Source: Arthrobacter humicola (GTDB taxonomy: Bacteria; Actinomycetota; Actinomycetes; Actinomycetales; Micrococcaceae). From it: 64,000 nucleotides of DNA. The stretch is from assembly GCF_022803015.1 (NCBI RefSeq), contig NZ_JAFKON010000008.1, forward strand, positions 186,001 to 250,000. Reading direction: 5' to 3'. The translations under genes were made by a program, and so were the position numbers. Each line of letters begins with the position of its first letter. Position 1 is the stretch's first letter. The notes under the pieces are model-generated. The model saw only the letters and a program-made list of their open reading frames with translations. It did not search any database and had not been told where the DNA came from. Below, piece after piece: positions 15,753 to 54,930 of the stretch.

Positions 15753-15775
15753 TTCTGTTGATGGCCACATAGTGT
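15747..15775 (+). promoter_or_regulatory. Promoter of the amidohydrolase/ABC/oxidase operon
   Basis: The -35 is TTGACA (15747-15752), followed by a 17-base spacer and a -10-like TAGTGT (15770-15775). The start codon follows at 15813 with GAGGAAGGG before it. The -35 is perfect and embedded in the palindromic operator. The -10 is weak. Confidence 0.6.
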
Positions 15776-15812
15776 GACGCAGGACACCAGAAGTTTGCGA
15801 GGAAGGGAACCC

Positions 15813-17480: not shown

Positions 17481-17517
17481 AACCGGGACGCCTTTCATGA
17501 TTAGAGGAAGGAAGCGC

Positions 17518-19161
17518 ATGGCTCCCACACGCTTATCGCGTCGACGGCTGGGCGCCGTCGTCGCTGGTTGCTCGGCCATTGGCCTCATGCTCAGCGGGTG
17601 CGGCACAACTGCGGGCGGCACCGTCGCCGCCAAATTCACCCTGAGCAATTCGACGCCCAAACCCAACAAGGAAATTGACCAGTTCAGCTGGGCGCTCTAC
17701 GCCGAGCCGTTTTCGCTCGACTACGCCTACGCGTTCGACTACCCGGACAACCAGGTCCTCGCAAACATGTGCGAATCGCTCTTCCGTTGGAACCCCGACC
17801 TGACCTCCGCGCCGGGGCTGGCAACCAAATTTGAGCACCCTGACGACCTGACCTGGGTGTACACCATCCGGCAGGGAGTCCACTTCCACGACGGCAGCCT
17901 CCTGACGGCCGCGGACGTGGTGGCCTCGCTCAAGCGGCATGTCGATGAGAAGGTCGGTTCCTTCTGGGCTTCCTCCTTTGAACGAGTGGCCGACATCCAG
18001 AAGACCGGCGACTACGAGGTCACCATCACCACCAGTGTCCCGGATTACGCCTTGAACTCCGCGCTGGTCGGGGCGCCCGGTGTCGTGGAATCCGCCAAGA
18101 CCCTCGCCAAGGACGGCGCGGACTACGGCAACGCCACCGCAGGCGTTAATTGTACGGGCCCCTTTGAATTTGACCACTGGGACGCCGGGGAGGGCATCAC
18201 GCTCAAGCGCTTCGACGACTACTGGGACCCAAACCTCAGGGCCAAGGCGAAGCAGATGACCTTTAAGATCCTCCCCGACGCCAATGCACGGGTTAACGCC
18301 CTGCAGACCGGCGAGATCGATGGCAGTTGGCAGGTTCCCTCCAACGCACTGGACATCCTCAAAGCCAACACAGACGCCGGAAACGTCTACTTTGGCAACG
18401 ACACTTCGGTGCAAAGCCTGGTCACATCAAATCTCAACGGCGTCTTCGGTGACGTCAGGGTCCGCAAGGCCCTCATGATGGCCATCAACCGTGAGGCGCT
18501 CCTTCAGGCGGCAGAGCAGGGCTACGGCAAGACGACCGATGCGCTGACCACCAGGAACGTGTGGGTGGGTGCCCAGCCTTCCACGGTCAATTCGGCCTTC
18601 GAATCGCCCGACAAACAGGACTACAACCTTGACGAGGCCAGGCGCCTCATCAAGGAAGCCGGCGCTACAGGCAAGAAATTCGTCTACGCGACGGCGTCCC
18701 TCACCGCGGCCTTCGACATCACCTCGCGTGCCGTTGCTTCCGCTGCCCGGGAAATCGGCCTGGCACCGGAGATTCAGACCATGTCCAATGACAAGTACAC
18801 GACGCTGTTCTCCGACCCCGAGGCCCGCAAGGGTGTCGATCTCTTCGAGACGTCCTGGTACCTCTCCAGCGCCGAACCCCTTGAAATGTACTCCGTGCTC
18901 CGTACCGGCGATTTCAGCAATTACGGTGGCTGGTCCAACGCCGAGTACGACCAACTCATCAACAGCGCGGTCGGCACCGAAGACGACGCCGAGCGAAACC
19001 GGCTCACGGCCCAGGCGGCGAAAATCGCCAGCCAGGACGTGGTCTGGTCCCCGCTCTATGAGACCGTCACCGCACTGTGGCTCGGCAAGCGCATCACAGG
19101 CGTGACGCCGTCGATCAACTACATGTACTACCCCTGGGCAGCAACGATTGGAGGCCGGTAG
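17518..19161 (+). CDS. Peptide-type ABC transporter substrate-binding lipoprotein
   Basis: This 547-residue SBP family 5 (DppA/OppA-like) protein binds an oligopeptide, amine conjugate or similar solute outside the membrane. The signal peptide begins MAPTRLSRRRLG and ends with lipobox LSGC, Cys28. Twin-arginine-like RRR is present, but the lipobox dominates. The family segment TYTIRQGVHFHDGS-like appears as VYTIRQGVHFHDGSLLTAADV. The start at 17518 is chosen for GAGGAAGGA five bases upstream. An ATG at 17497 is also in frame. It lies 37 bp after the amidohydrolase and is followed at once by the permease. Confidence 0.9.
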   Translation: MAPTRLSRRRLGAVVAGCSAIGLMLSGCGTTAGGTVAAKFTLSNSTPKPNKEIDQFSWALYAEPFSLDYAYAFDYPDNQVLANMCESLFRWNPDLTSAPGLATKFEHPDDLTWVYTIRQGVHFHDGSLLTAADVVASLKRHVDEKVGSFWASSFERVADIQKTGDYEVTITTSVPDYALNSALVGAPGVVESAKTLAKDGADYGNATAGVNCTGPFEFDHWDAGEGITLKRFDDYWDPNLRAKAKQMTFKILPDANARVNALQTGEIDGSWQVPSNALDILKANTDAGNVYFGNDTSVQSLVTSNLNGVFGDVRVRKALMMAINREALLQAAEQGYGKTTDALTTRNVWVGAQPSTVNSAFESPDKQDYNLDEARRLIKEAGATGKKFVYATASLTAAFDITSRAVASAAREIGLAPEIQTMSNDKYTTLFSDPEARKGVDLFETSWYLSSAEPLEMYSVLRTGDFSNYGGWSNAEYDQLINSAVGTEDDAERNRLTAQAAKIASQDVVWSPLYETVTALWLGKRITGVTPSINYMYYPWAATIGGR

Positions 19162-19163
19162 CC

Positions 19164-20183
19164 GTGGCTGTGACCCAACTGGCAGCACCACCCGCCCCAC
19201 CGACCCCCGCAACGAAGAAAAGCCCGACGGCGGCACCATTAGCCCTGGTGCTCCGCAGGGTAGGAACGCTGCTGATCACCCTGTTCTTCGCCTCACTGAT
19301 CGTGTTCTTCTCACGCTTTGTCCTGCCGGGCGACCCGGCGCGCTTCCTCCTGCGCGGCCGGAGCCCCAAACCGGAGGCCCTCGCGGAGATCACCAAGCAG
19401 TTCGGCCTGGACAAGCCTCCGATCGAGCAGTATTTCACGTGGATCGGAGGCATCCTCCACGGTGACTGGGGCCGCTCGCTGACCTACCGCCAGAGCGTGA
19501 GCGATGTGCTGCTCAACCGCCTGCCCGTGACGCTGGAACTCGTGGCCCTGGCCGCCGTCTTCATCACAGGCCTGGGCCTCATTGCCGGCATGCTCGCAAG
19601 CTTGAACAAGGGCGGCTGGGACCGCTTCATCCTCATCACGGTCACGGCAGCCGGTGCCATACCCCCGTTCGTTGCGGCGATTGTCCTGACCGCCCTCTTC
19701 GCGGTCCAGTTGGGGTGGTTTCCTTCCTTCGGCAGCGGTGATGAAGGGCCGAGCCGGCTTTGGCACCTGACACTCCCTGCCCTGGCGCTGGGCGTGACCT
19801 TCATTGCCTTCATGGCCCGGGTGACGCGTTCCTCAATGAACGAACAACTCACCCGCGAACACGTGGAGGTGGCCACCAGCCGCGGCCTCACACGCAGTTC
19901 CGTGGTGTTCCGGCACGTGCTCCGCAACGCCCTGGGCCCCATCCTGACAGTGAGCGGTGTACTGATCGCCGGCCTTCTGGTCTCCAGTGCCATCGTGGAA
20001 CAGACATTCGGCCTGACCGGGATCGGCCAGCTTCTGGTCCAGTCGATCGACCGGCTCGACTTCGCGGTGGTTCAGGCGATCGTCATGATCATTGTCACGG
20101 CATTCGTCCTGGCCAACACGGTAGTCGATCTCATCCAACCCCTCATTGACCCGCGGATCGCCGCAGGAACGGAGTCCCGATGA
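19164..20183 (+). CDS. Peptide-type ABC transporter permease (DppB-like)
   Basis: This 339-residue protein has a membrane anchor at about residue 35 and the BPD_transp_1 domain. The family's N-terminal region and the EAA loop HVEVATSRGLTRSSVVFRHVL-like segment (near residue 235) are visible. The start is a GTG at 19164, nine bases after GGAGG. The first 25 residues are Pro/Ala/Thr-rich. It follows the binding protein by two bases and overlaps the next permease by four (ATGA). It forms the channel with the DppC-like subunit. Confidence 0.9.
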   Translation: MAVTQLAAPPAPPTPATKKSPTAAPLALVLRRVGTLLITLFFASLIVFFSRFVLPGDPARFLLRGRSPKPEALAEITKQFGLDKPPIEQYFTWIGGILHGDWGRSLTYRQSVSDVLLNRLPVTLELVALAAVFITGLGLIAGMLASLNKGGWDRFILITVTAAGAIPPFVAAIVLTALFAVQLGWFPSFGSGDEGPSRLWHLTLPALALGVTFIAFMARVTRSSMNEQLTREHVEVATSRGLTRSSVVFRHVLRNALGPILTVSGVLIAGLLVSSAIVEQTFGLTGIGQLLVQSIDRLDFAVVQAIVMIIVTAFVLANTVVDLIQPLIDPRIAAGTESR

Positions 20184-21037
20184 CTCTCACAGGAACGCTT
20201 CCCCTCCTGAGGACCCACCGCTACGGAAGCCTCCTGTCGGTCACGGGTTGGGTGGCAGTGACGGTAACGCTCGTCGTTGTGCTTCTCTCCCTGCTCGCCC
20301 CGGTCCTGGCCCCGTACGATCCGGACTTCGTCGATCTTTCCAGCGTGCTGGGCGGGCCAAGCAGCGCCCACTTGCTCGGCACCGATGCCCTGGGCCGCGA
20401 CATGCTCAGCCGCCTCATGTTCGGGGGGCGTACCTCGCTCGTCGGCCCGTTGATTGTGGTGGCAGCGTCCACGGTCCTGGGCCTGCTCTTGGGCCTGGCA
20501 GCCGGATGGACGGACGGCTGGATCAGCAGGATCCTGACCCGCGTCTTCGACCTGCTCTTCGCCTTCCCCGCACTGCTGCTCGCCATGCTGGCCATTGCCA
20601 TCTTCGGCAAGGGCCTCATAGCGCCGATCCTGGCCATGACCATCAGCTACATCCCGTACGTGGCGCGTTTGACGCAGCAGTTGGTGGTCGCCGAACGGAG
20701 CCGGCCATATGTCCAGGCCTACCGGGTGCTGGGATTCCGGACTCCCTGGGTGGTGCTGGGACGGGTGATGCCAAACCTGGTGCCCACCGTTGGCGCCCAG
20801 TCCACGCTCAACTTCGGCTATGTGCTCGCCGACCTCGCGGCACTGTCCTTTATTGGCCTCGGCATCCAGCCGCCAACCTCCGACTGGGGAGCCATGATCG
20901 AGGAGGCCCGGGGCGCACTGCTCGGCGGCCACGTGCTGCCGGCCTTTCTGCCCGCGCTCGTCGTCGTTCTTATTGTCGTATCCATCAACGTCATCGGTGA
21001 GGAACTCTCCGACCGGATTGGAGGCAAGCTTTCATGA
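20180..21037 (+). CDS. Peptide-type ABC transporter permease (DppC-like)
   Basis: This 285-residue inner-membrane permease has the DppC-type entry segment LLGTDALGRDMLSRLMFGGR near residue 60 and the EAA-loop segment YVQAYRVLGFRTPWVVLGRVMPN. It overlaps the upstream permease stop and the downstream ATPase start by four bases each. The tight coupling indicates one transporter expressed in fixed ratios. Confidence 0.92.
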   Translation: MTLTGTLPLLRTHRYGSLLSVTGWVAVTVTLVVVLLSLLAPVLAPYDPDFVDLSSVLGGPSSAHLLGTDALGRDMLSRLMFGGRTSLVGPLIVVAASTVLGLLLGLAAGWTDGWISRILTRVFDLLFAFPALLLAMLAIAIFGKGLIAPILAMTISYIPYVARLTQQLVVAERSRPYVQAYRVLGFRTPWVVLGRVMPNLVPTVGAQSTLNFGYVLADLAALSFIGLGIQPPTSDWGAMIEEARGALLGGHVLPAFLPALVVVLIVVSINVIGEELSDRIGGKLS

Positions 21038-31096: not shown

Positions 31097-31140
31097 GGCC
31101 TGTGTCAGCTCATCGATCTATCTCGCGGGAGCGTGCGCCC

Positions 31141-32889
31141 ATGGCCAAGGAACTTGCCACCCAGCTCATCGAACAACTCCAGGCTGCCGGCGTGCAGCGG
31201 ATCTACGGGATTGTGGGGGACAGCCTCAACCCGATTGTCGACGCCGTCCGCAAGACCGGCGGCTCGCAACAGGGCGGTATCGATTGGATCCATGTCCGGC
31301 ATGAGGAGGCGGCCGCATTCGCCGCGGCGGCGGAAGCCCAACTGACCGGCCGGCTCGCGGTGTGCGCCGGCTCCTGCGGGCCCGGCAACCTGCACCTGAT
31401 CAACGGCCTGTATGACGCCAACCGTTCCGGGGCGCCGGTGCTGGCCATCGCCTCGCACATCCCCAGCAAGCAGATCGGCAGCAGTTTCTTCCAGGAAACC
31501 CACCCCGACCGGCTCTTCAACGAGTGCTCGGTCTACTCCGAGCTGATCAGCACCGCGGAGCAGGCGCCCCGCGTCATGCACAGCGCCATCCAGCACGCCG
31601 TCGGCCTAAGGGGCGTCGCCGTCGTGACCCTTCCCGGTGACATCGCCGGCCTGGAGGCGACGGCCGAAACGCCGGCCCCGGCGACCTTCCGGCCGGCGGC
31701 GCTGATGCCGGACCCCGCGAGTGTGCAGGAACTGGCCGACGCCATCAACGCCGCCGGCAAGGTGGCCATCTTTGCCGGTGCCGGCGTCGAGGGCGCGCAC
31801 GACGAGGTGATTGCGCTCGCCGGGCTGATCGCGGCGCCGATCGGCCACAGCCTCCGCGGCAAAGACTTCATGCAGTACGACAACGCCTATGACATCGGCA
31901 TGACCGGGCTGCTGGGTTACGGCGCCGCGGCCGAGGGCATCGAGGACGCGGACCTGCTGATCCTGCTGGGAACGGACTTCCCGTACGACCAGTTCCTCCC
32001 CGGAACCCGGACGGCGCAGGTGGACCGGGCCGCGCACAAACTGGGGCGGCGGACCGACGTCGACGTCGCAGTGCACGGCGACGTCCTCCCCACCCTTGCC
32101 GCCCTCATGCCGTTGGTCACGGCCAAGAAGAGTCGCCGTTTCCTGGATGCGATGCTGAAGAAGCACGACCGGCTCATGAACAAGGCCGTGGGGGCGTACA
32201 CCCGCAACGTCGGGACGAAACAGCCGATCCACCCGGAATATGCTGCCTCCCTGCTGGACCAGGTGGCGGCGAGGGACGCGATTTTCACGGCGGACACCGG
32301 CATGTGCAATGTCTGGACCGCCCGGTACATCAACCCGCTGGGCACCCGCCGGCTGATCGGCTCGTACCTGCACGGGTCCATGGCCAACGCGCTGCCGCAC
32401 GCGATCGGCGCCCAGCTGGCCTACCCCGGCCGGCAGGTGGTTTCGGTCTCCGGCGACGGCGGCCTGTCGATGCTGCTGGGCGAGCTCATCACGGTCGCCG
32501 CGCACCGGCTGCCCGTGAACGTGGTGGTCTTCAACAACTCCACCCTGGGCATGGTGAAACTCGAGATGCTGGTGGACGGGCTCCCGGACTTCGGCGTCGA
32601 CGTCCCGGACGCCAACTACGCGGACGTTGCCCGGGCCCTGGGCTTCCACGCCGAGCGCGTCACGGATCCGTCCCGCATCGAGGCTGCGTACCGGGAAGCC
32701 TTCGCCCACCCCGGCCCGTCGCTGGTGGAGCTCATCACGGACCCCAAGGCGCTGTCCCTCCCGCCGAAGATCAAGGGCGCGCAGGTCCTGGGCTTCGCCA
32801 CGGCCATGTCCAAAGTGGTCCTGAACCGGGGTGCCGGCGAGGCCGTCAGTATGGCACGGAGCAACCTGCGGAACGTCCCGCGGCGCTAG
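31141..32889 (+). CDS. poxB: Pyruvate dehydrogenase (quinone) / pyruvate oxidase
   Basis: This 582-residue ThDP- and FAD-dependent enzyme decarboxylates pyruvate to acetate and CO2 and passes electrons to quinone at the membrane surface. The catalytic Glu lies in VRHEEAAAFAAAAEAQ near residue 55. The ThDP-binding motif is GDGGLSMLLGE, ending at VVVFNNSTLG. Length and order of domains match actinobacterial Pqo. The ATG at 31141 is preferred because MAKELATQLIEQL is the usual beginning; an in-frame start 13 codons earlier lies at the promoter. Acetate made here feeds the same acetyl-CoA pool that the nearby glyoxylate shunt uses. Confidence 0.9.
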   Translation: MAKELATQLIEQLQAAGVQRIYGIVGDSLNPIVDAVRKTGGSQQGGIDWIHVRHEEAAAFAAAAEAQLTGRLAVCAGSCGPGNLHLINGLYDANRSGAPVLAIASHIPSKQIGSSFFQETHPDRLFNECSVYSELISTAEQAPRVMHSAIQHAVGLRGVAVVTLPGDIAGLEATAETPAPATFRPAALMPDPASVQELADAINAAGKVAIFAGAGVEGAHDEVIALAGLIAAPIGHSLRGKDFMQYDNAYDIGMTGLLGYGAAAEGIEDADLLILLGTDFPYDQFLPGTRTAQVDRAAHKLGRRTDVDVAVHGDVLPTLAALMPLVTAKKSRRFLDAMLKKHDRLMNKAVGAYTRNVGTKQPIHPEYAASLLDQVAARDAIFTADTGMCNVWTARYINPLGTRRLIGSYLHGSMANALPHAIGAQLAYPGRQVVSVSGDGGLSMLLGELITVAAHRLPVNVVVFNNSTLGMVKLEMLVDGLPDFGVDVPDANYADVARALGFHAERVTDPSRIEAAYREAFAHPGPSLVELITDPKALSLPPKIKGAQVLGFATAMSKVVLNRGAGEAVSMARSNLRNVPRR

Positions 32890-45197: not shown

Positions 45198-46391
45198 TCA
45201 CGCCCAAGCGACGACGAGCCGGGCCGTCTGCGCCGGGACCGCCAGGTCCACGCCTGTCAGATCCTGAAAGCGGCTGATCCGGTTGAGGATGGTGTTGCGG
45301 TGGCAGAAGAGCTGCTGCGCTGTCGCCGTAATGCTCCCTGTTTCCAAGTAATGCTGGACGGTTTCTTTCAGCCGCTCCCGTTCGCCGCCGCGGCACCCGG
45401 ACAGGCCGGCCTCAAGGTCGGCCAGCAGGTCCAGGCCGACGTCGAGCATTTGCTGCTTGGCCAGCCGGGCCCAGGCGGCCTCCGCTGACAGGGGCCCGGA
45501 ATCGGAAGGCCGCAGCAGGGAGGCGAGGCTTCCGGCCGTGCGGGCGGCCGCGGGCAGCGCCCGCAGCCCGGCGACGCCCGGAACATAACCGCATGGGATG
45601 TCGGTCAACGCGGCGGGAACAGAGTGCCGGGCGCCGTCCCGGTATGGCGGGAGCGGCCAGAACGCGTAGGTGTTCCCACCGAATTCGTGGACGAAGAACC
45701 GGCTGCGAGTCTGTTGCCCGGAGCCCAGGCTGGTCGCGGCCGTTCGGAGACTCACTGCTGCGTCGCCACTGGCCGCCACGAGTCCGAAGCGGGCGGTCGA
45801 GTCCACGCCGAGGGCGGCGGCGACCTGGCTGACGGTCTCCGCGGTGGGGCTAGCCTGGTTGAAGAGCCGGGCAATGAATTCGCGGCGGATGCTGGACTCC
45901 TCCTGGGCCATCCGCACGCGTTCGGTCAGATAGCTCGTGTGGGTGCGCGTGGCGAATTGGTCCACGACGCGCCAGACCCTGTCCACACTGGATGCCAGCA
46001 GCGCGGCGTCCTCGGCATCGGCGATCTGCAGCAGGCCTTCCCAGATGATGCTGAAGTCCAGCCGGACGGCCGAGATGAGCGCCTCCGGCGGGATGCCGGC
46101 CCGGGCGCGTTTGGCGCCCAGATCGGCAGCAAATTCGAGGAGCGACTCCATCGCCGGACCAAGGGTGGACTGCTGCCGGAGTTCCTGTCCGCGCAGCCCG
46201 TCCACCAAGCGCCTGAATGTTTCGCGCGCAGTCACTTCGAGATCGCCGGAGCCCACCTGTTTTTCGGCATACTCGGGGATGTCACGGACCCTCGCCGTAA
46301 ATGTTTCGGCCAGCGTGTCCAGCCGCCCGTGGAGCAGCTCCACCAGTTCGGCCCAGCGCAGGGAATCACCCGGCGAATGAAAATTGTGCAT
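45198..46391 (-). CDS. PucR/CdaR-family transcriptional regulator
   Basis: This 397-residue regulator has a C-terminal PucR helix-turn-helix (HYLETGSITATAQQLFCHRNTILNRISRFQDLTG), a middle GGDEF-like/CdaR dimerisation region and an N-terminal sensor helix bundle (LLHGRLDTLAETFTARVRD). Family members activate purine, amino-acid or other nitrogen-source genes. The gene is divergent from the transporter/ThDP/aldehyde dehydrogenase/amidohydrolase operon and should control it. The effector is presumably the operon substrate. Confidence 0.88.
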   Translation of the reverse strand: MHNFHSPGDSLRWAELVELLHGRLDTLAETFTARVRDIPEYAEKQVGSGDLEVTARETFRRLVDGLRGQELRQQSTLGPAMESLLEFAADLGAKRARAGIPPEALISAVRLDFSIIWEGLLQIADAEDAALLASSVDRVWRVVDQFATRTHTSYLTERVRMAQEESSIRREFIARLFNQASPTAETVSQVAAALGVDSTARFGLVAASGDAAVSLRTAATSLGSGQQTRSRFFVHEFGGNTYAFWPLPPYRDGARHSVPAALTDIPCGYVPGVAGLRALPAAARTAGSLASLLRPSDSGPLSAEAAWARLAKQQMLDVGLDLLADLEAGLSGCRGGERERLKETVQHYLETGSITATAQQLFCHRNTILNRISRFQDLTGVDLAVPAQTARLVVAWA

Positions 46392-46428
46392 TCACACATT
46401 TTAGGCATGGAAATGCGTGATGCAATGC
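46388..46428. promoter_or_regulatory. Cluster of GCAT/ATGC half-sites before the MHS operon
   Basis: GCAT occurs at 46388 and 46405, and ATGC at 46413, 46420 and 46425, including the palindrome GCAT-ggaa-ATGC (46405-46416). The cluster begins at the PucR start codon. It is a candidate PucR operator by position only. Confidence 0.35.
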
Positions 46429-46544
46429 TAGTTTTTTGGACGAAATGTACTGGCAGAATGGAACAAGAGAAACCGGGTGAGCGCAGTCACACCCCGTCGG
46501 CCTTATCGGCCGGTTCCATCCCTTCCGCATTATTTGGAGTAATC

Positions 46545-47882
46545 ATGGCAAGCAGCGCAAGCAACGCCACCACCACCGCCAGTCCGCAGTTGCCCCGGGT
46601 TGTCGATGAGAGCGTGGCCAAGAAAGTCGCCCTCGCGGCCCTCGTCGGAACGGCGCTGGAGTGGTACGACTTCTTCCTGTTCACCACGGCCGCAGCGCTG
46701 GTGTTCAACGCGCAGTACTTCGTGTCCCAGGACCCCTTCGTCTCGGCCATGAGCTCCTTTGCCACCCTGGCCGTGGGCTTCGTGGCCCGCCCGATCGGCG
46801 GCTTCATCTTCGGGGCCCTGGGGGACAAGGTGGGGCGCAAGAAGATCCTGATGGTCACCATCGTGGGCATCGGCCTCGTGACCGGGCTCATCGGCCTGCT
46901 CCCGAACTACATGACGATCGGCGTCGCGGCCCCCATTCTGCTGGTTGCCCTGCGCATCCTGCAGGGCCTCGCCGTCGGCGGCGAGTGGAGCGGCGCGGTG
47001 ATCATCGCAGTCGAAAACGCCCCGGTTGCCAAGCGCGCCCGCTACGCTGCCCTCCCGCAGCTCGGCTCGCCTATCGGCACCATCCTGTCCTCCGGCGGCT
47101 TCTTCGGAATGCTCTACCTGGTGGGCCAAGCCAACTTCGATGCCTGGGGCTGGCGCATCCCGTTCATCGCGGCGATCCCGCTGCTGGCCATCTCGATGTG
47201 GATCCGCAGCAAGCTCAGCGAGTCCCCGGAATTCGAAGCCCTCATGGAGTCCGGCGAGACCGAGCACGCCCCCATCCGCGGCGTCCTGACGAAGAGCTGG
47301 CGCCAGATCCTGGTGGGCATGTGCTCGGCGCTGCTGGGCATCGGCGGCTTCTACCTCATCACCAGCTTCGTAGTCTTCTACGGCACCAAGGTGCTCAAGA
47401 TGCCCTACGAAACCTTGCTTCTCGGCTCGCTCCTCGCTGCCGTCTTCGAAATCTTCGCCCTGATCTGGGCCGGGCGCATGGGCGAGAAATACGGTGCCAG
47501 CAAGGTCATCCTCTGGGGCGGCATCGCATCCGCCGTCATCGCCGTGCCGGTCTTCCTGGCCATCGACACCGCCAACCCCGCCCTGGTCATCATCGCCATG
47601 ATCATCGGCGTGTGCACCCTGTCCATCCCTTACGCGGTGTCCGGAACGGCCCTGACCGCACTCTTCGCCACAAAGGTCCGGTACACCGGCGTCGCCATCA
47701 CCTCCAACAGCGCGGGCGTCATCTCCGGCTTCGTGCCGCTGATCGCCACCGCCCTCGTGGCCGCCAATGGCAACTCATTCTGGCCCGGCGCCATCATCTT
47801 GCTGGTGGTGTCCGTATTGACCGCGCTGTCCGGCATTTTCCTCCCCGCACTGAGTATCGAAGAAAAGGGAATGAAGCATTGA
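46545..47882 (+). CDS. MFS transporter, metabolite:H+ symporter (MHS) family
   Basis: This 445-residue protein has 12 predicted membrane segments and the MHS entry motif GTALEWYDFFLFTTAAALVF. Further family loops are GALGDKVGRKKIL and LQGLAVGGEWSGAVIIAVENA. It is expected to import an organic acid or amino-acid-like compound with protons. The ATG at 46545 has TTTGGAG spaced six bases upstream. It is the first gene of the five-gene operon; its stop overlaps the TTG start of the ThDP enzyme. The substrate is probably that of the hydrolases downstream. Confidence 0.9.
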   Translation: MASSASNATTTASPQLPRVVDESVAKKVALAALVGTALEWYDFFLFTTAAALVFNAQYFVSQDPFVSAMSSFATLAVGFVARPIGGFIFGALGDKVGRKKILMVTIVGIGLVTGLIGLLPNYMTIGVAAPILLVALRILQGLAVGGEWSGAVIIAVENAPVAKRARYAALPQLGSPIGTILSSGGFFGMLYLVGQANFDAWGWRIPFIAAIPLLAISMWIRSKLSESPEFEALMESGETEHAPIRGVLTKSWRQILVGMCSALLGIGGFYLITSFVVFYGTKVLKMPYETLLLGSLLAAVFEIFALIWAGRMGEKYGASKVILWGGIASAVIAVPVFLAIDTANPALVIIAMIIGVCTLSIPYAVSGTALTALFATKVRYTGVAITSNSAGVISGFVPLIATALVAANGNSFWPGAIILLVVSVLTALSGIFLPALSIEEKGMKH

Positions 47883-49504
47883 GTACAACAACCACCGCCG
47901 GGCACCTGATTGTTGCCCAGCTGGAACGAGCCGGTATCCAGCGCGTCTACGGTGTTCCCGGGGAGAGCTTCCTGGATGTGCTGGACGGCTTGCACGGATC
48001 CTCCATTGAAACCGTGGTGACCCGCCACGAAGGCGGCGCCGGGTTCATGGCCCTCGCCGAAGGCCGGCTCACGGAGCTTCCGGGCGTGGCCATGGTGACC
48101 CGTGGCCCCGGTGCAGCCAACGCCTTCATCGCCATCCACACCGCGCACCAGGACGCCACCCCGATGATCCTGTTCGTGGGCCTCATCCCGGTCGCGGACC
48201 GCGGCCGGGAGTCGTTCCAGGAATTCGAAATCAACGCCTGGTTCGGCAGCACCGCCAAGAAAGTCGTGACGCTCGACGACGCCGCCTCCGCCGCCCGCGT
48301 GGTTGACGACGCCATCTTCACAGCACTCAGCGGCCGGCCGGGACCCGTGGTGATCGGCCTGCCCGAAGACGTGCTGGTCCACGCGATCGAATCGGCCACG
48401 GTGGAGCCCCGGACCGTCGCCCGGACTGAACCTGCAGCAGCCGATCTCGCCGGCCTCGAGACGCGCCTGGCCGCGTCCAGGAAACCCCTGATCGTGGTGG
48501 GCGGCGAAGGCTGGGACCAGGCATCCTCCGACGCGCTGGCCGGCTGGGCCACCCGCCACGGCGTCCCGGTGCTCGCAGACTTCCGCGCCTACGACGCCGT
48601 CCCGCACAACAGCGACGCCTACGCCGGCTACCTCGGCTACGCCCGCAGCGACGCCAACGCCCGCCGCCTCGACGAGGCCGACCTGCTGGTCTTCGTCGGC
48701 TGCGTCCGCGCCGACGTGCTCTCCGACGGCTACAAGCGCGGACTGGATGCCGTCACCGTCGTCGCCCACCCCGGCGCCGATCTGCTCGGCCACTTCGGCC
48801 GGCTGGACCAGCACATCCCGGCCCACGTCGCGTCCTTCGCCAACGCACTCGCCGCCACGGAATCCGCGGTGGAACCCGCGGCCGGCTGGCTGACCGGGGC
48901 CCGCGCGGACTACGAAAAATTCTCCACCGCGCAGCCGGATGGAGGCACGGGGGTGGACCTCGCCGTCGTCATGGAAATCCTCAAGCAGGAAATGGACGAC
49001 GACGCCGTCATCACCTACGGGGCCGGGAACCACTCGCTGTGGCCGGCCCGCTACCTGAAGCACAACACCGCGAACTCACTCGCCGCACCCCGCAACGGGG
49101 CCATGGGCATGGGGATCCCGGCGGCGGTGGCTGCATCCCTGGCCTACCCCGGCCGCCAGGTGATTTCCGTGGCCGGTGACGGTTGCTTCATGATGAACGG
49201 CCAGGAAATGGCCACGGCCATGGGCCACGGCGGGAAGTTCATCGCCCTCGTGGTGGACAACGGCATCTTCGCCACGATCCGTGAGCACCAGGAAGGCCAC
49301 TACCCGGGCCGGCCCTCGGGCACACACATGACCAACCCGGACTTCGCCGCACTGGCCCGGTCCTACGGCGGCTACGGCGAACGGGTCGAGACGGCAGAGG
49401 ACTTCGGCGCCGCTTTCCGCCGTGCCGTCGACTCCGGGCTGCCGGCAGTCCTGCACCTCCCGCAGGACCCCACCACCCGCTCGCCCAAGACCGCCAGCAA
49501 CTGA
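47879..49504 (+). CDS. ThDP-dependent enzyme (acetolactate synthase/2-oxoacid decarboxylase-like)
   Basis: This 541-residue protein has the three-domain layout of the acetolactate synthase family. The catalytic Glu lies in TRHEGGAGFMALAEGR near residue 48. The ThDP motif GDGCFMMNGQEMATAM ends at LVVDNGIF. Regulatory partners of true acetolactate synthase are absent, so a decarboxylase or lyase role is more likely. The start is TTG at 47879, which overlaps the transporter stop as TTGA with AAGGGA upstream. Its neighbour is an aldehyde dehydrogenase, so it may convert a 2-oxoacid to an aldehyde that the dehydrogenase oxidises. Its substrate is unknown. Confidence 0.85.
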   Translation: MSTTTTAGHLIVAQLERAGIQRVYGVPGESFLDVLDGLHGSSIETVVTRHEGGAGFMALAEGRLTELPGVAMVTRGPGAANAFIAIHTAHQDATPMILFVGLIPVADRGRESFQEFEINAWFGSTAKKVVTLDDAASAARVVDDAIFTALSGRPGPVVIGLPEDVLVHAIESATVEPRTVARTEPAAADLAGLETRLAASRKPLIVVGGEGWDQASSDALAGWATRHGVPVLADFRAYDAVPHNSDAYAGYLGYARSDANARRLDEADLLVFVGCVRADVLSDGYKRGLDAVTVVAHPGADLLGHFGRLDQHIPAHVASFANALAATESAVEPAAGWLTGARADYEKFSTAQPDGGTGVDLAVVMEILKQEMDDDAVITYGAGNHSLWPARYLKHNTANSLAAPRNGAMGMGIPAAVAASLAYPGRQVISVAGDGCFMMNGQEMATAMGHGGKFIALVVDNGIFATIREHQEGHYPGRPSGTHMTNPDFAALARSYGGYGERVETAEDFGAAFRRAVDSGLPAVLHLPQDPTTRSPKTASN

Positions 49505-49516
49505 CCGGAGCCTGTC

Positions 49517-50944
49517 ATGATCACCCTGCACAACATCATCAACGGTGAGATCGTCCAAGGCAGCGCCGCAGACGGTTCAGCCGCTGCCGCCCTGCCCTTC
49601 TTCGACCCCGCCACCGGAGTCCAGCTCGGCACCGCCCCGGACAGCGACGCCGCCACCGTGGACCGCGCCTTCCAGGCCGCCCACACCGCCTTCCAGAGCT
49701 ACAAGCGGACCACCCCGGCCGAACGCCAAGCCATGATGCTCAAACTCGCCGACCTCATCGAAGCCAACGTCGACAGGCTCCTCGACGCCGAGGTGGCCTG
49801 CACCGGCAAGCCTCGCCAGGTGACCCGCGAGATCGAGATCCTCCGCGGCGCCGACCAGCTGCGCTTCTTTGCCGGCGCCTGCCGCGTGGTGTCCGGGACC
49901 GCCCAGACCGAATACGTCCACGGCTTTTCCTCCACCGTCCGGCGTGAACCCCTCGGCGTGGTCGCCCAGATCACCCCGTGGAACTACCCGTTCATGATGG
50001 CCATCTGGAAGATCGGACCGGCGCTCGCCGCCGGCAACACGCTTGTCCTGAAGCCGGCGGACACCACCCCCTGGTCCACCCTGGTCCTGGGCGAGCTGGC
50101 GCAGGAGGCCTACCCGGCCGGCGTCGTGAACGTCATCTGCGGTGGCCGAGGGACCGGTGCCGCCATGGTGGATCACGAGATCCCGGAAATGGTGTCCATC
50201 ACCGGCTCTACCCGGGCCGGGGCGCAGGTGATGTCCGCGGCGTCGAAGACCCTCAAGGACGTCCACCTGGAACTCGGCGGCAAGGCACCGGCGATCGTTT
50301 TCGCCGACACCGACATTGACCTGGCGGCCAGGGAGATCGCGCTCGGTGCGTTCTTCAACGCCGGGCAGGACTGCACCGCCGTGACCCGTGTGCTCGTCGA
50401 GGACTCCATCCACCAGGAGTTCGGCGCCGCGCTCGCCGCGGCAGCCGCAGCGCTGCAGGTGGGCGGCGACGCCGCGGACCTGGGCCCGCTGAACAGCGCC
50501 GCCCAGCTTGACCGGGTGGAAGGCTTCATGTCCCGGTTGCCCGCGAACGCCAGGGTCCTGGCCGGAGGCAAGCGGACGGGCGCCGGCTTCCACTTCGAAC
50601 CCACCGTCATCGACGGGGTGTTCCAGGCCGACGAGGTGGTCTGCGAGGAAATCTTTGGACCCGTCGTCACCATCCAGCCCTTCCGGGACGAGGCCGAAGC
50701 CTTGGAGCTGGCCAACGGGACCAAGTACGCGCTGGCCTCCAGCGTCTGGTCCAACAACCACGGAGTGGTTACCCGGGTCTCCAATGAGCTGGACTTCGGC
50801 GCCGTCTGGATCAACTGCCACCAGGTGATCCCGGCCGAGGCACCGCACGGCGGTTTCAAGCACTCCGGGACAGGCAAGGACCTCTCCGTCTTTGGCCTGG
50901 AGGACTACACCCGCATCAAGTCAGTCACCACCTCCCACCGCTAA
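49517..50944 (+). CDS. Aldehyde dehydrogenase, aminobutyraldehyde/betaine aldehyde-like
   Basis: This 475-residue NAD-dependent aldehyde dehydrogenase has TPWNYPFMMAIWK, ITGSTRAG, the catalytic Glu in ELGGKAPAIVF and the nucleophilic Cys in AGQDCTAVTR. It resembles the dehydrogenase at 13376 in the GQDCTA context, though the two differ widely elsewhere. It lies 12 bp after the ThDP gene and 19 bp before the amidohydrolase. It would oxidise the aldehyde formed in this pathway to its acid. Confidence 0.9.
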   Translation: MITLHNIINGEIVQGSAADGSAAAALPFFDPATGVQLGTAPDSDAATVDRAFQAAHTAFQSYKRTTPAERQAMMLKLADLIEANVDRLLDAEVACTGKPRQVTREIEILRGADQLRFFAGACRVVSGTAQTEYVHGFSSTVRREPLGVVAQITPWNYPFMMAIWKIGPALAAGNTLVLKPADTTPWSTLVLGELAQEAYPAGVVNVICGGRGTGAAMVDHEIPEMVSITGSTRAGAQVMSAASKTLKDVHLELGGKAPAIVFADTDIDLAAREIALGAFFNAGQDCTAVTRVLVEDSIHQEFGAALAAAAAALQVGGDAADLGPLNSAAQLDRVEGFMSRLPANARVLAGGKRTGAGFHFEPTVIDGVFQADEVVCEEIFGPVVTIQPFRDEAEALELANGTKYALASSVWSNNHGVVTRVSNELDFGAVWINCHQVIPAEAPHGGFKHSGTGKDLSVFGLEDYTRIKSVTTSHR

Positions 50945-50963
50945 AGAACCACGTAGGTAACCC

Positions 50964-52718
50964 TTGAAACTCGATCTGCTGCTGCGCAACGCGGACATCA
51001 TCACCATGGATGAGCGCCGCCCGCATGCCACCTCGCTGGGAGTCTGGCAGGGCCGGATTGTGGGCCTCGACGACGACCTGGCCGGCCTGGACGCGGCCGA
51101 AGTCCTGGACCTCGGCGGCGCCACCGTGACCCCCGGCTTCATCGACGCCCACTGCCACACCACCTGGTTCGGGCTCGGCCTGGGCGAACTGGACGTCTCC
51201 GCCGCGCGCGGCCTGACGCAGCTCTACGCCCTGCTGGAGGCCGGCATGGCGGCAGACAGCGCGCGGCCTGAGGCAGGGCAAGAGCCCGGGACCGGAGCGG
51301 CGCCGGACTGGCTGCTGGCCACCGGCTTCAGCCAGCAGCAGCACGGCGGCGAGTTCCCGGACATCACCGTTTTGGACCGGATCACGGGAAACCGGCCGCT
51401 GTTCATGCGGCACAACTCCGGGCACATGGCCGTAGTCAACACGGCCGCGCTCCGGCTGGCCGGCGCCGAACCGGCGTCGTTTCCGGATCCCGACGGCGGC
51501 GTCATTGTCCGCGACGCCGACGGCCGCCCCACCGGGCTGGTCCAGGAAACCGCGCAGCAGCTGATCCAGCAGCTGATCCTGCCGTACTCGTCCGAGGCGA
51601 TCGAAGCCGCACTGGACCGGGCCACCACCTACTACGCCGCGGAGGGCATCACGAGCTTCACCGAGGCCGGGATCGGCGGCGGCTGGATCGGCCACAGCCC
51701 CGTGGAGCTGGCCGCCTACCAGCGGGCGGCCTCCGCGGGCAGGCTCCACGCCCGGGCGCAGCTGATGCCCGTTCTGGATGTCCTCCACCCGCTCGGCGGG
51801 CAGCACCCGCCGGGCACCACGCCGGCCGGACTGGATCTGGGCATCGCCAGCGGCTTCGGCGGCGACTTCCTGTCCCTGGGCCCGGCGAAGGTTTTCCTGG
51901 ACGGGTCACTGCTCGGCGAAACGGCCGCGGTCAGCCATGACTACTGCAGCCACGGCGGGACGGACAACACCGGCAACACCGGCTACTTCCAGGCCGAACC
52001 GGACGCGCTCCGGGCAAAGATCGAGGCCGCCTACGCGGCCGGCTGGTCGATCGCGGCGCACGCCATCGGCGACCGCGCCGTTGACCTCGCGATCGACATC
52101 ATCACCGGCTGCGCCGCCAAATACGGCCCCCGGACCGTGCCCAACAGGATAGAACACGCCTCGATGACCCGGCCGGAACAGCTGCAACGGCTGGCCGCCG
52201 CGGACATCGCCGTCACCCCGCAGGCGAGCTTCTTCGCCGACGGCGGGGACGGCATGACGCTGTCCCTCGGCCCGGAACGGCTCGGTTGGGCCTACCGGGC
52301 GGCGTCGTTCCTGTCCGCCGGTGTGACACTCGCCGGCAGCTCCGACCGCCCCGTGGCCGACGGAAACGTGCTCCGCGGCATGCAGGCGTTCGTGGACCGG
52401 CGCACCGCCTCCGGGGCCGTGTTCGGGAACCCGGACGAGCGGCTGGGCCCGCTCCAGGCCTTGGCGGCCTACACCACCGGAGCCGCCGCAGCCACCGGCG
52501 CCTCCGGCGTCAAAGGCTCACTGACCGCCGGAAAGCTGGCCGACTTCACCGTCCTGTCGGGGTCCCCGCTTACCGCGGACAGCATCGCCGAACTCCAGGT
52601 GCTGGCCACCGCCGTCGGGGGGAACTTCACGTTCCGGAGCCCCGGCCTCACGTCCCCGGTTGCGGTCGATTCGGCCGCAACCGGTCCATTCTTCAGCACA
52701 GCCACCAATCGTTCATAG
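50964..52718 (+). CDS. Amidohydrolase, YtcJ / N-substituted formamide deformylase-like
   Basis: This 584-residue hydrolase is of the same amidohydrolase_3 group as the protein at 15813. Metal-ligand segments are DAHCHT near residue 60, AAHAIGDRAV, RIEHASM and GSSDRPVADGN. The last differs from the GSDWAV of the other protein, so the two are not recent duplicates. The start is a TTG at 50964 preceded by AGGTAA. It sits between the aldehyde dehydrogenase and the M20 amidase, so two hydrolytic steps are encoded side by side. The substrate is unknown; amides, formamides and ureido compounds are possibilities. Confidence 0.82.
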   Translation: MKLDLLLRNADIITMDERRPHATSLGVWQGRIVGLDDDLAGLDAAEVLDLGGATVTPGFIDAHCHTTWFGLGLGELDVSAARGLTQLYALLEAGMAADSARPEAGQEPGTGAAPDWLLATGFSQQQHGGEFPDITVLDRITGNRPLFMRHNSGHMAVVNTAALRLAGAEPASFPDPDGGVIVRDADGRPTGLVQETAQQLIQQLILPYSSEAIEAALDRATTYYAAEGITSFTEAGIGGGWIGHSPVELAAYQRAASAGRLHARAQLMPVLDVLHPLGGQHPPGTTPAGLDLGIASGFGGDFLSLGPAKVFLDGSLLGETAAVSHDYCSHGGTDNTGNTGYFQAEPDALRAKIEAAYAAGWSIAAHAIGDRAVDLAIDIITGCAAKYGPRTVPNRIEHASMTRPEQLQRLAAADIAVTPQASFFADGGDGMTLSLGPERLGWAYRAASFLSAGVTLAGSSDRPVADGNVLRGMQAFVDRRTASGAVFGNPDERLGPLQALAAYTTGAAAATGASGVKGSLTAGKLADFTVLSGSPLTADSIAELQVLATAVGGNFTFRSPGLTSPVAVDSAATGPFFSTATNRS

Positions 52719-52727
52719 GGGAAAACC

Positions 52728-53990
52728 GTGACCACTCAGACCTCTTTCAGCACCCGCGACGCCGCGTTCGTGCGGGACTTCCACATCATGAGCGAATTCG
52801 GCGCCACCGAGAACGGCGGCGTGGAACGCCAGGCCGCCAGCGTGCCGGACGGCCAGCAGCGGCAATGGCTCACCGGCCTGCTGGAGGCCAACGGCTTCAC
52901 CGTCCGTTTCGACCGGGCCGGCAACCAGTGGGGCCTGTACGAGGCCGTCCCGGGTGCCCCCTTCGTCGTGGTGGGTTCCCACATGGATTCCCAGCCGACG
53001 GCGGGACGCTACGACGGCGCGTACGGCGTGCTCGCCGCGGCCCATGCGGCGTTCCGGCTCGTGGAGCAGTGGGCCGCGGCCGGGGACGCCGGGCAGCCCC
53101 GGTTCAACATCGCGGTGGTCAACTGGTTCAACGAGGAGGGCTCCCGCTTCAAGCCGTCCATGATGGGCTCCTCCGTCTACACCGGAAAGCTCGAACTCGA
53201 AACCGCGCTGGCCACCACGGATGCGGCCGGAGTCTCGGTCCGCGAGGCCCTGGACGCGATCGGCTGCCGGGGCAGCTACGAGGGCCCCGAAGCCGCGTAC
53301 TGCGCCGAAATCCACATTGAACAGGGCCGGAGCATGGAACGCGAAGGCATCACCATCGGCCTGGTGAACTCCAACTGGGCGGCCAACAAATACGAGTTCG
53401 TGGTCCACGGCGAGCAGGCCCACACCGGCTCCACCGTGATCGCGGACCGGAAGGACGCGCTGCTGGGTGCGTCCATGATGGTGGTCGCCGCGCGGGAACT
53501 CGCCGACACCTTCCCCGGCGTGCTGCACACCTCCGTGGGACAACTGAACGTCTACCCCAACTCGCCCGTCGTGGTGCCGTCCCGGGTGAGCCTGCTGCTG
53601 GACCTGCGCAGCGCCGACGAGGCTGTCCTTGCCGAGGCCGACGCCTTGCTGGACGAGCGGATCGCCGGGATCGAACGGCTGGCGAACGTCACGGTGGAGC
53701 GCAACCACGCCCACACCTGGCCCGTGACCCCCTACCAGCCCGAAGGCGTGGAACTCGCAGCCAAGGTGGCGGCGGACCTGGGCCTGGCGAACAAGCAGGT
53801 CATGACCCTGGCCGGGCACGATTCGACCAACATGAAGGACCTGGTCCCGACGGTGATGCTGTTTGTGCCCAGTGTGGACGGGATCTCCCACAACGAGCAC
53901 GAATACACCACGGACGAGGACATCGTGGCCGGCCTGGCGATGCTCACCGAGGTAGTGAACCGGCTCTGCAACGGGGCGCTGGAGGACTGA
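52728..53990 (+). CDS. M20-family Zn hydrolase (allantoate/N-carbamoyl-amino-acid amidohydrolase-like)
   Basis: This 420-residue dinuclear-zinc hydrolase is of the AmaB/HyuC/AllC group. Metal-ligand and substrate segments are GSHMDSQPTAGRYDGAYGV near residue 85, NWFNEEGSRFKPSMMGS, HIEQGRSMER, GEQAHTGSTVIADR and AGHDSTNM. Family members cleave N-carbamoyl amino acids, allantoate or ureidoglycolate to ammonia and CO2 products. The start is a GTG at 52728, nine bases after the amidohydrolase stop. It is the last gene of the PucR-linked operon. The role of a ureido or amide intermediate is inferred from the family. Confidence 0.88.
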   Translation: MTTQTSFSTRDAAFVRDFHIMSEFGATENGGVERQAASVPDGQQRQWLTGLLEANGFTVRFDRAGNQWGLYEAVPGAPFVVVGSHMDSQPTAGRYDGAYGVLAAAHAAFRLVEQWAAAGDAGQPRFNIAVVNWFNEEGSRFKPSMMGSSVYTGKLELETALATTDAAGVSVREALDAIGCRGSYEGPEAAYCAEIHIEQGRSMEREGITIGLVNSNWAANKYEFVVHGEQAHTGSTVIADRKDALLGASMMVVAARELADTFPGVLHTSVGQLNVYPNSPVVVPSRVSLLLDLRSADEAVLAEADALLDERIAGIERLANVTVERNHAHTWPVTPYQPEGVELAAKVAADLGLANKQVMTLAGHDSTNMKDLVPTVMLFVPSVDGISHNEHEYTTDEDIVAGLAMLTEVVNRLCNGALED

Positions 53991-54067: not shown

Positions 54068-54838
54068 TCAGGCGCCTTCCGGCTTCTGCGAGATCCAGAG
54101 CATCCCCCCGTTGGGGTTCCCAGGCAGGTCAGCCGCGTCCGGGTTGGCCACGTGCAGGGTCCGCCCGAAGGCCTCTTCCGTCAGGCTGACCCGGTGGCCG
54201 GCGGCCGCCAGGCGGTCCCGCAAGCCGGCGAGGTCGCCGGTGTATTCAAACCCCAGGCCGGTCCGGGCGGCGCCGCTGGCGGGCCGGACCATCAGCACAC
54301 CGCCGTTCTTCGCCGTGAAATCCGCGGTTTCGTCGTCGTCCGGGGCCGGCCGCAGCCGGGCGCCCATGTTCCGCAGGGTTTGCGCGGCGGAGGCCGCGTC
54401 CGGCGTGAACCAGACTTCGACGACGGCCAGGGCCGGATCGGCGTCCGCGCACTGCGCGCCGTGGGCGGCCTTGTCCGCGAAGAAGCCGAACCCGTCCTCG
54501 CCCGTGATCCGGCAGGTATCGCCGTGGCGGGCGCTGACCAGCTCGGCCGGGGTGGTCCCGTCCTCCGCGCCGGCCAGATTGGTGCGGCGCGCGAACTCCG
54601 CCAGATCCCCGACCTCGACGCCGAAGTCAGTCTTTCCATCCAGCACGATTCCGGCACCGGCACCGGCATCAGCCCCGGCGGCACCCGCCGCTACCCGGTG
54701 CAGCGCGAGGCGGCCCGAGCCGGCGTCGAACTCCTGCCAGTCGCCGTCGTCGACTGTGCGCACCATGCCGAGGGCGGACAGCAGGCCCTCCCACTGGTCC
54801 ATGCGGGAGGTGTAGTGGATCGGGCGGACGCGCAGCAT
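54068..54838 (-). CDS. VOC (glyoxalase/bleomycin resistance-like) family protein
   Basis: This 256-residue protein has two VOC-type halves. The first begins MLRVRPIHYTSRMDQWEGLLSALGM. The second is seen in DPALAVVEVWFTPDAASAAQTLRNMGARLR and GVLMVRPASG. It lacks an obvious full set of metal ligands, so it could be a binding protein rather than an enzyme. AAGGAGA five bases before the ATG at 54838 decides the start. It is divergent from the YdeI/OmpD-like gene. The function is unknown. Confidence 0.8.
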   Translation of the reverse strand: MLRVRPIHYTSRMDQWEGLLSALGMVRTVDDGDWQEFDAGSGRLALHRVAAGAAGADAGAGAGIVLDGKTDFGVEVGDLAEFARRTNLAGAEDGTTPAELVSARHGDTCRITGEDGFGFFADKAAHGAQCADADPALAVVEVWFTPDAASAAQTLRNMGARLRPAPDDDETADFTAKNGGVLMVRPASGAARTGLGFEYTGDLAGLRDRLAAAGHRVSLTEEAFGRTLHVANPDAADLPGNPNGGMLWISQKPEGA

Positions 54839-54930
54839 GGGATCTCCTTGCGAGGGACGGTTTTTGGCTCCTCCTGACATGGTGCCACCAAAGCACCCCT
54901 CCGGTCAGCACAGCAGGGCACAATGGGGCC

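Follow-up and report, generated by a model that had tools for sequence, protein, structure and literature searches.

Gene organization

In a 64,000-nucleotide stretch of the Arthrobacter humicola genome (RefSeq assembly GCF_022803015.1, contig NZ_JAFKON010000008.1, positions 186,001 to 250,000; hereafter the window, whose numbering is used here), five genes on one strand lie divergent from a gene for a PucR-type regulator. They encode a transporter, a thiamine diphosphate (ThDP)-dependent enzyme, an aldehyde dehydrogenase and two hydrolases, and were originally predicted to be an operon for the use of a nitrogen compound. Gene families were assigned by Pfam and NCBIfam profile matches with curated cut-offs.

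46545-47882, plus strand, MHS-like MFS transporter; ATG start, 445 aa
47879-49504, plus strand, ThDP enzyme of the PRK08199 subfamily; TTG start, 541 aa, 4-bp overlap with the transporter gene
49517-50944, plus strand, aldehyde dehydrogenase; ATG start, 475 aa, 12 bp after the ThDP gene
50964-52718, plus strand, YtcJ-family (Amidohydro_3) metal-dependent amidohydrolase; TTG start, 584 aa, after a gap of 19 bp
52728-53990, plus strand, M20 hydrolase of the allantoate amidohydrolase/carbamoylase family; GTG start, 420 aa, after a gap of 9 bp
45198-46391, minus strand, PucR-type regulator (HTH_30), divergent from the operon across a 153-bp intergenic region
54068-54880, minus strand, convergent gene, ending 77 bp past the M20 stop

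All five frames are intact, the sole stop in each being the terminal one, and the junctions of -4, 12, 19 and 9 bp bear out the predicted coupling by overlaps or short gaps. Three terminator-like sites were observed between 46300 and 54200, against 3.8 expected from shuffles, and all of them are within genes; hence none of these sites separates the five genes. A sigma-70 promoter scan returned a single weak site, inside a gene. Judged from the tight junctions and the conserved gene order, the five genes are probably one operon.

Conservation across genera

The ThDP protein was scanned against one genome per species, giving 397 relatives, from which the best 79 loci were kept. Neighbours were found by tblastn of the window proteins and from a neighbourhood table, in which genes were called by a simple script and named by eye unless a Pfam or NCBIfam match is cited. 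The ThDP enzyme is at least 52 % identical in 64 of the 79 loci, 55 of which have at least 4.5 kb on both sides, and less than 52 % identical in 15, 11 of which have enough flank. This line was set after the loci had been viewed, with no locus falling between 49 % and 52 %, and many of the loci are from close Arthrobacter relatives, so that the counts cannot be treated as independent.

In the 55 loci, M20 and PucR are near-constant (54 each) within 8 kb of the ThDP gene; the only locus without M20, L025, has it about 9 kb away. Other genes are found less regularly: the MFS1 transporter (41), YtcJ (39), RraA (31), RidA (30), a second transporter, MFS2 (30), the aldehyde dehydrogenase (21), and ALDH2, which resembles succinate-semialdehyde dehydrogenase (SSADH; 10). 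M20 is accompanied by YtcJ or RidA in 50 of the 55 loci. Neither M20 nor PucR is present in any of the 11 loci with a ThDP enzyme less than 52 % identical. The commonest gene runs are MFS-ThDP-YtcJ-M20 (18 loci), the same with the aldehyde dehydrogenase after ThDP, as in the window (16 loci), and ThDP-M20 (12 loci). Since M20 and PucR are near-constant beside ThDP and the remaining genes vary, ThDP-M20-PucR is the core, joined by two kinds of entry arm, YtcJ and MFS2-RidA-RraA, with the aldehyde dehydrogenase being variable. The linkage to PucR that had been described in the window is supported.

In the 18 closest loci (L001-L016, L054, and L055), both arms flank the same PucR gene in all except L002 and L012, and in L062 both are in one gene run. 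The window has no second arm; the best RraA matches in its genome are no more than 35 % identical, compared to at least 45 % in arm-bearing loci with the same query. In L002, RraA, three RidA-like stretches, and MFS2 are downstream of the operon (17500-20712), not beside PucR. The RraA-like protein matches PF03737 and by eye has Thr at what we take to be the catalytic Arg of the HMG/CHA aldolases, from which no conclusion is drawn.

The module recurs in Micrococcaceae, Microbacteriaceae, and Streptomycetaceae, and in loci of Nocardiopsis, Streptomonospora, Amycolatopsis, and Brevibacterium. The neighbourhood search suggested with the original prediction has thus found a cluster that is conserved across genera, and the grouping of the genes is beyond chance. 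None of the operon genes is beside the ThDP gene in 13 proteobacterial PRK08199 loci (five PRK08199 loci, one actinobacterial, were read by eye), and these neighbourhoods were therefore discarded as a source of help.

Enzymes of the operon

The ThDP enzyme belongs to the PRK08199 subfamily (NF006052, 579.3 bits, cut-off 539), the only subfamily cut-off it exceeds among the 25 best NCBIfam models shown. The original prediction depended on this enzyme not being a true acetolactate synthase, and by family score it is not: TIGR00118 gives 265.5 of 538 bits, TIGR02418 gives 243.2 of 551 bits, and no more than 58 % of any acetohydroxyacid synthase (AHAS) or AlsS cut-off shown is reached. The genome's true AHAS lies elsewhere (743 bits), and this identity was rejected. 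Likewise, it scores about 100 bits at the operon position for glyoxylate carboligase (Gcl; TIGR01504, cut-off 711), a canonical Gcl being present elsewhere in the genome (C55; 1102 bits).

Glu51 and His470, which occupies the position governing side-chain specificity, are kept in all 99 rows (98 different) of a maximum-likelihood tree of ThDP enzymes. In an alignment to Bacillus AlsS, His470 is opposite a Gln, presumably Gln487, and we take AHAS to have a Trp at this position. The enzyme could be a carboligase involved in acyloin or acetolactate-like synthesis, in which case the operon would condense rather than shorten an intermediate. The nearest solved structures are indeed acetolactate synthases, at about 200 bits; however, this is improbable given the low AHAS and AlsS scores, the His found in every row at the AlsS Gln position, and the presence in some loci of a neighbouring aldehyde dehydrogenase, which fits an aldehyde product. 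When residues are counted from the metal-binding one, rather than aligned, His470 corresponds to Lys471 of a cyanobacterial 2-oxoglutarate decarboxylase, a docked substrate contact (PMC10418658).

In the tree, the 79 operon ThDP enzymes fall within one group of 83 rows (SH-aLRT 95). The four extra rows are actinobacterial, two of them (L031 and L156) adjoining a YtcJ gene, and the Micrococcaceae paralogue and proteobacterial rows are outside the group. The operon type requires three changes on the tree, being clustered rather than one clean clade; long branches are flagged and fine placements are unsure. In this genome the Micrococcaceae paralogue (L151) adjoins an amino acid permease and a glutaminase-like gene (by eye), a context not shared by L153 and L154. 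Another ThDP enzyme of the window (31102-32889; 248 bits, below the AHAS cut-off) is outside this operon.

The M20 hydrolase exceeds the cut-offs of the hydantoinase/carbamoylase-family model TIGR01879 (278.6 bits, cut-off 204) and of NF006772, the NCBIfam allantoate amidohydrolase subfamily (442.8 bits, cut-off 424), and keeps the catalytic NEEG and HIEQG motifs. The binding residues of a carbamoyl amino acid or beta-ureidopropionate hydrolase are only partly present. Arg294 aligns with the carboxylate-binding Arg, which is kept, and Val281 replaces the substrate-site Asn of beta-alanine synthase, presumably N309 of the yeast enzyme. Among the 96 rows with at least 55 % identity, a set with the window included and some genes in duplicate, position 281 is Val in 91, Ile in 2, and a gap in 3. 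Ile is also found in the eight rows at 45-54 %, which come from four genes represented twice each, and the single row below 45 % has Asn. Val or Ile is therefore found in all ungapped rows at least 46 % identical. For Arg291 of a Rhizobium enzyme, PMC10952681 describes the salt bridge between Arg and carboxylate. Val281 lowers the claim of an ordinary carbamoylase, although ureido hydrolysis would still be compatible. The predicted carbamoylase/amidase is thus upheld as a family, and by its binding residues it is not an orthodox carbamoylase.

M20 relatives at 1e-110 or better are found in 13 of 394 class-wide genomes. An ArgE/DapE-type deacylase is found in five of the 394, all five within those 13 and three of them from one genus. 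M20 relatives adjoin an amidase in L125 (Pfam) and in L126, L127, and L137 (named by eye), and in L135 M20 is beside a CN hydrolase (Pfam) and an L-lysine-monooxygenase-like flavoenzyme (791 bits to 3we0). Other operons therefore also pair M20 with a second amide hydrolase; in L128 (M20 46 %) and L136 none was recognised by eye. In L125 (7728-11893), an M20 paralogue (52 %) from the same genome is part of an MFS-M20-amidase run, with an architecture common to L126 and L127.

The amidohydrolase matches PF07969 at 276.7 bits, and its metal ligands (HxH at 63/65, H366, H398, and D461) are invariant in 18 aligned rows, in keeping with the YtcJ family membership of the NfdA/YtcJ-like enzyme that had been predicted. 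In its AlphaFold model (mean pLDDT 84.8, 70 residues below 50), the nearest folds are 3igh (Z 42.8, root mean square deviation 3.3, 468 aligned) and 3icj (Z 41.9, 3.8, 453 aligned), which are uncharacterised archaeal hydrolases, followed by many amidohydrolases of differing function; consequently, the fold comparison names no substrate. NfdA is placed in the same Pfam family by a figure legend of PMC13081902, which would suit an N-substituted formamide (isonitrile-type) pathway with YtcJ as an NfdA-kind deformylase. This is a very remote prospect, because the family spans many reactions, bile salt hydrolysis among them, and no nitrile- or isonitrile-processing gene was recognised by eye in the window gene list, no dedicated search having been made.

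YtcJ relatives are present in 53 of the 394 genomes, and their surroundings were viewed in 18 of these, besides the window. In four (L155, L157, L159, and L164), a fused urease gamma/beta gene and a urease-alpha-like gene adjoin YtcJ. Two alpha-like proteins were scanned (582 and 561 bits, below the urease cut-off of 680), and a genome-wide scan gave alpha-like matches in the same range (561 to 582 bits) at each of the four positions; urease above the cut-off is also present in three of these genomes, not in G472. Possibly, these proteins are a urease relative with another substrate. The four urease-like operons also hold an MHS-like transporter and PucR, and in L157 the urease flap cysteine, at its presumed position, seems by eye to be replaced. 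A second YtcJ-family gene in the window (15774-17480), 31 % identical to that of the operon, is clustered with an aldehyde dehydrogenase gene (13376-14854, minus strand), a TetR-like gene, and ABC transporter genes (partly by eye).

These enzymes could alternatively make up a purine-ureide or hydantoin route, in which YtcJ would act as a cyclic amidohydrolase, M20 would be the allantoate amidohydrolase or a carbamoylase, and the ThDP enzyme would be Gcl. M20 is above the allantoate amidohydrolase cut-off, hydantoinase and carbamoylase are a known pairing, and YtcJ relatives adjoin the urease-like pair. However, a canonical allantoinase (563 bits, cut-off 358) adjoins the canonical Gcl elsewhere in the genome, the ThDP enzyme has retained a catalytic Glu, presumably missing from Gcl, and is far below the Gcl cut-off, and the M20 Asn is replaced, making this route decidedly improbable. 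The genome's urease (963 bits) is also elsewhere. Gcl and the main allantoin route were rejected for this operon, and, because the genome's own AHAS, Gcl, and allantoinase lie elsewhere, purine ureides are an unlikely substrate.

The aldehyde dehydrogenase is nearest to gamma-aminobutyraldehyde dehydrogenase, narrowly missing the cut-off (NF010000, 587.8 bits, cut-off 615), and its best solved relative is 1wnb (411 bits). The best NCBIfam match of the transporter, TIGR00883 (MHS), is also below its cut-off (365.7 bits, cut-off 443), and the cut-offs for Pfam MFS_1 and Sugar_tr are exceeded.

The resemblance of the aldehyde dehydrogenase would fit a catabolic route for an amino acid of the lysine, arginine, or citrulline type, in which YtcJ would deacylate the side chain, the ThDP enzyme and aldehyde dehydrogenase would shorten the 2-oxo acid by one carbon, and M20 would free a ureido or acyl group to give gamma-aminobutyric acid (GABA) or 5-aminovalerate. 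In support, the epsilon-lysine acylase SmELA of Streptomyces is classed as a YtcJ-like amidohydrolase in PMC10699109, and in L135 the 3we0-like L-amino acid oxidase/monooxygenase and CN hydrolase beside M20 offer an alternative one-carbon-shortening route. Nevertheless, the operon has no gene making the 2-oxo acid, and the published metal residues of SgELA (H76, H78, H330, H365, and D431) do not match the YtcJ spacing. In addition, eight of the 13 well-flanked RidA/RraA loci without YtcJ carry an aldehyde dehydrogenase of the L019 kind, which was SSADH-like in the one scanned. Amino acid breakdown of this type is therefore rather unlikely. The homologue in L165 was rejected as an epsilon-lysine acylase, its HxH being at 63, not 76.

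Regulator and candidate operator

The regulator is PucR-type by its match to PF13556 (HTH_30; 62.4 bits, cut-off 27); the Pfam scan lists no match to the PucR N-terminal domain (PF07905), and RsbRD_N and HTH_23 only under their cut-offs. The intergenic region contains two dyads.

46385-46398, no strand assigned, candidate operator TGTGCATTCACACA (TGTG-N6-CACA); overlaps the start codon predicted for PucR
46477-46490, no strand assigned, second dyad, GTGA-N6-TCAC, in the region separating PucR from the transporter gene; conserved in close Arthrobacter loci

A dyad of the type TGTGC-N-GCAC is present in the divergent PucR promoter of the window, where its form, TGTGCATTYNCAC, is the single occurrence in the whole 4.7-Mb genome. 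The pattern TGTGC-N(2-7)-CAC is found in 47 of 53 divergent PucR promoters, compared to 1.31 expected by mononucleotide shuffling, the exceptions being L022, L031, L041, L048, L051, and L060, and it is common to loci with the YtcJ arm and those with the RidA/RraA arm. The pattern was derived from the same regions as first counted, and many loci are near relatives, hence these counts are not independent. The fixed pattern was then applied to 19 further PucR starts outside this set, these being the 26 scanned minus duplicates of loci from the first count (L130 of L026, L134 of L032, L142 of L056, and L143 of L019, as well as L031, L041, and L048). Eight of the 19 match, against 0.59 expected. 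The strict form, TGTGC-N4-GCAC, is found at five, against 0.05 expected, including L167 and L168, where PucR faces just a transporter and an ArgE/DapE-type deacylase; the other three (L131, L133, and L166) fit the loose form only. Given its overlap with the predicted PucR start codon, the dyad may serve autoregulation, or the true start may be further in.

The second dyad is found in 19 of 43 intergenic regions, where mononucleotide shuffling predicts 0.09; all but one of the 19 are the window and its close relatives. The window PucR shares 96 % identity with that of L002 and 77 % with that of L012, falling to 63-68 % with the PucR proteins of the 16 remaining closest Arthrobacter loci, unlike the other operon proteins, which are 78-99 % identical to those of the closest Arthrobacter loci. 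The RidA/RraA/MFS2 arm beside PucR is missing in just the window, L002, and L012, and the PucR side looks as if exchanged.

PucR-type regulators also govern the use of GABA, proline, alanine, and purines (PMC7652997), and this regulator therefore gives no pointer to purines. With separate allantoinase and Gcl genes in the genome as well, the lean toward purines in the original prediction is not sustained.

Proposed function

It is proposed, on what we consider an even balance of probability, that this is a PucR-controlled operon for importing and degrading an organic nitrogen acid of the amide, formyl, or ureido type. The PucR-type local regulator would control a dedicated catabolic operon, and the MHS-like transporter would import an organic nitrogen acid with amide-, formyl-, or ureido-type bonds. 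The YtcJ and M20 enzymes would hydrolyse two C-N bonds in turn, yielding a 2-oxo acid, directly or via an imine or enamine. The ThDP enzyme would decarboxylate this to an aldehyde, which the aldehyde dehydrogenase would oxidise to an acid entering central metabolism. The 2-oxo acid might come from a transaminase encoded elsewhere or from an imine or enamine released by hydrolysis. The latter is suggested by the RidA genes of relatives, since RidA proteins are known to hydrolyse imines and enamines. We infer each reaction from family membership, and likewise the sequence of steps, the substrate, and what the regulator does. As a guess made with little conviction, the substrate would be an omega-amido or omega-ureido 2-oxo acid of five or six carbons, or a precursor of such an acid.

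This proposal is based on the gene anatomy, the families, the conserved linkage, the shared candidate operator, and the low AHAS and Gcl scores. Several observations weigh against it. The operon has no aminotransferase, dehydrogenase, or oxidase making a 2-oxo acid from an amino acid, the aldehyde dehydrogenase is poorly conserved (21 of 55 loci), and YtcJ and RidA/RraA alternate, which makes the step order tentative. To our knowledge, no PRK08199 member has been characterised. The YtcJ-M20-PucR loci L129, L133, and L138 have no adjoining ThDP gene, and no ThDP match at 1e-100 exists anywhere in G031, the genome that contains L138; decarboxylation would therefore be dispensable in some relatives. 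No dyad is found at 11 of the 19 further PucR starts, including all four urease-like loci and four ThDP-bearing Streptomyces loci (L023, L024, L025, and L028), in which PucR is not directly opposite ThDP. The predicted sequence of amide or ureido cleavage to an oxo acid, decarboxylation, and oxidation is still the best fit, as a series of inferred steps.

In the open-licence PubMed Central literature, no paper on this gene combination was found. The operon is real, conserved, and, within that literature, uncharacterised; it has more structure than was visible to the original prediction, and it is built of familiar families. It may plausibly, at somewhat short of an even chance, belong to a catabolic regulon that is widespread among actinobacteria and still uncharacterised, serving the breakdown of natural amides or ureides by undescribed routes. 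Such a regulon would combine PucR and a TGTGCAnnTGCACA-like operator with exchangeable entry enzymes (YtcJ, RidA with the RraA-like protein, or the ArgE/DapE-type deacylase), their own MHS-like transporters, and a shared ThDP decarboxylase and M20 with a new substrate class. Because the module recurs across many actinobacterial groups, its substrate, once found, would inform the naming of many genes that would automatically be labelled as acetolactate-synthase-like or allantoate amidohydrolase. Three families without firm substrates, the PRK08199 ThDP enzymes, the Val/Ile-281 M20 clade, and this YtcJ clade, become jointly testable, and the candidate operator is a ready reporter for finding the inducer.

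Comparison with known systems

The hydantoinase/L-carbamoylase (hyu) clusters of Arthrobacter likewise contain a metal amidohydrolase, an M20 enzyme of the hydantoinase/carbamoylase family, and a transporter. Here, however, the amidohydrolase is YtcJ-type, M20 has lost the substrate-site Asn, and the ThDP enzyme, aldehyde dehydrogenase, and PucR are extra. The mandelamide/mandelate pathway of Pseudomonas has an amidase, a ThDP 2-oxo acid decarboxylase, and an aldehyde dehydrogenase in series, as is proposed here from the genes, although with other hydrolase families and another ThDP subfamily, and this operon has no mandelate dehydrogenase or racemase. Similarly, in the arginine transaminase pathway of Pseudomonas (AruH/AruI, via 4-guanidinobutyraldehyde), a ThDP decarboxylase is followed by an omega-amino/guanidino-aldehyde dehydrogenase, a pairing that the present genes would share. 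However, the ThDP enzyme scores only 195 bits for the 5-guanidino-2-oxopentanoate decarboxylase model (NF005712, cut-off 500), and no transaminase is present in this operon.

For the regulation, the gabTDP genes with GabR of Corynebacterium glutamicum are comparable. GabR is described in PMC7652997 as a divergently encoded local activator, for the use of a nitrogen compound, of the PucR type without a GGDEF-like domain, with intergenic inverted repeats. The regulator type, the absence of that domain, the divergence, and the inverted repeats are alike in the window. The enzymes differ, and GabR is placed there under the PucR family PF07905, whereas here only HTH_30 is above its cut-off.

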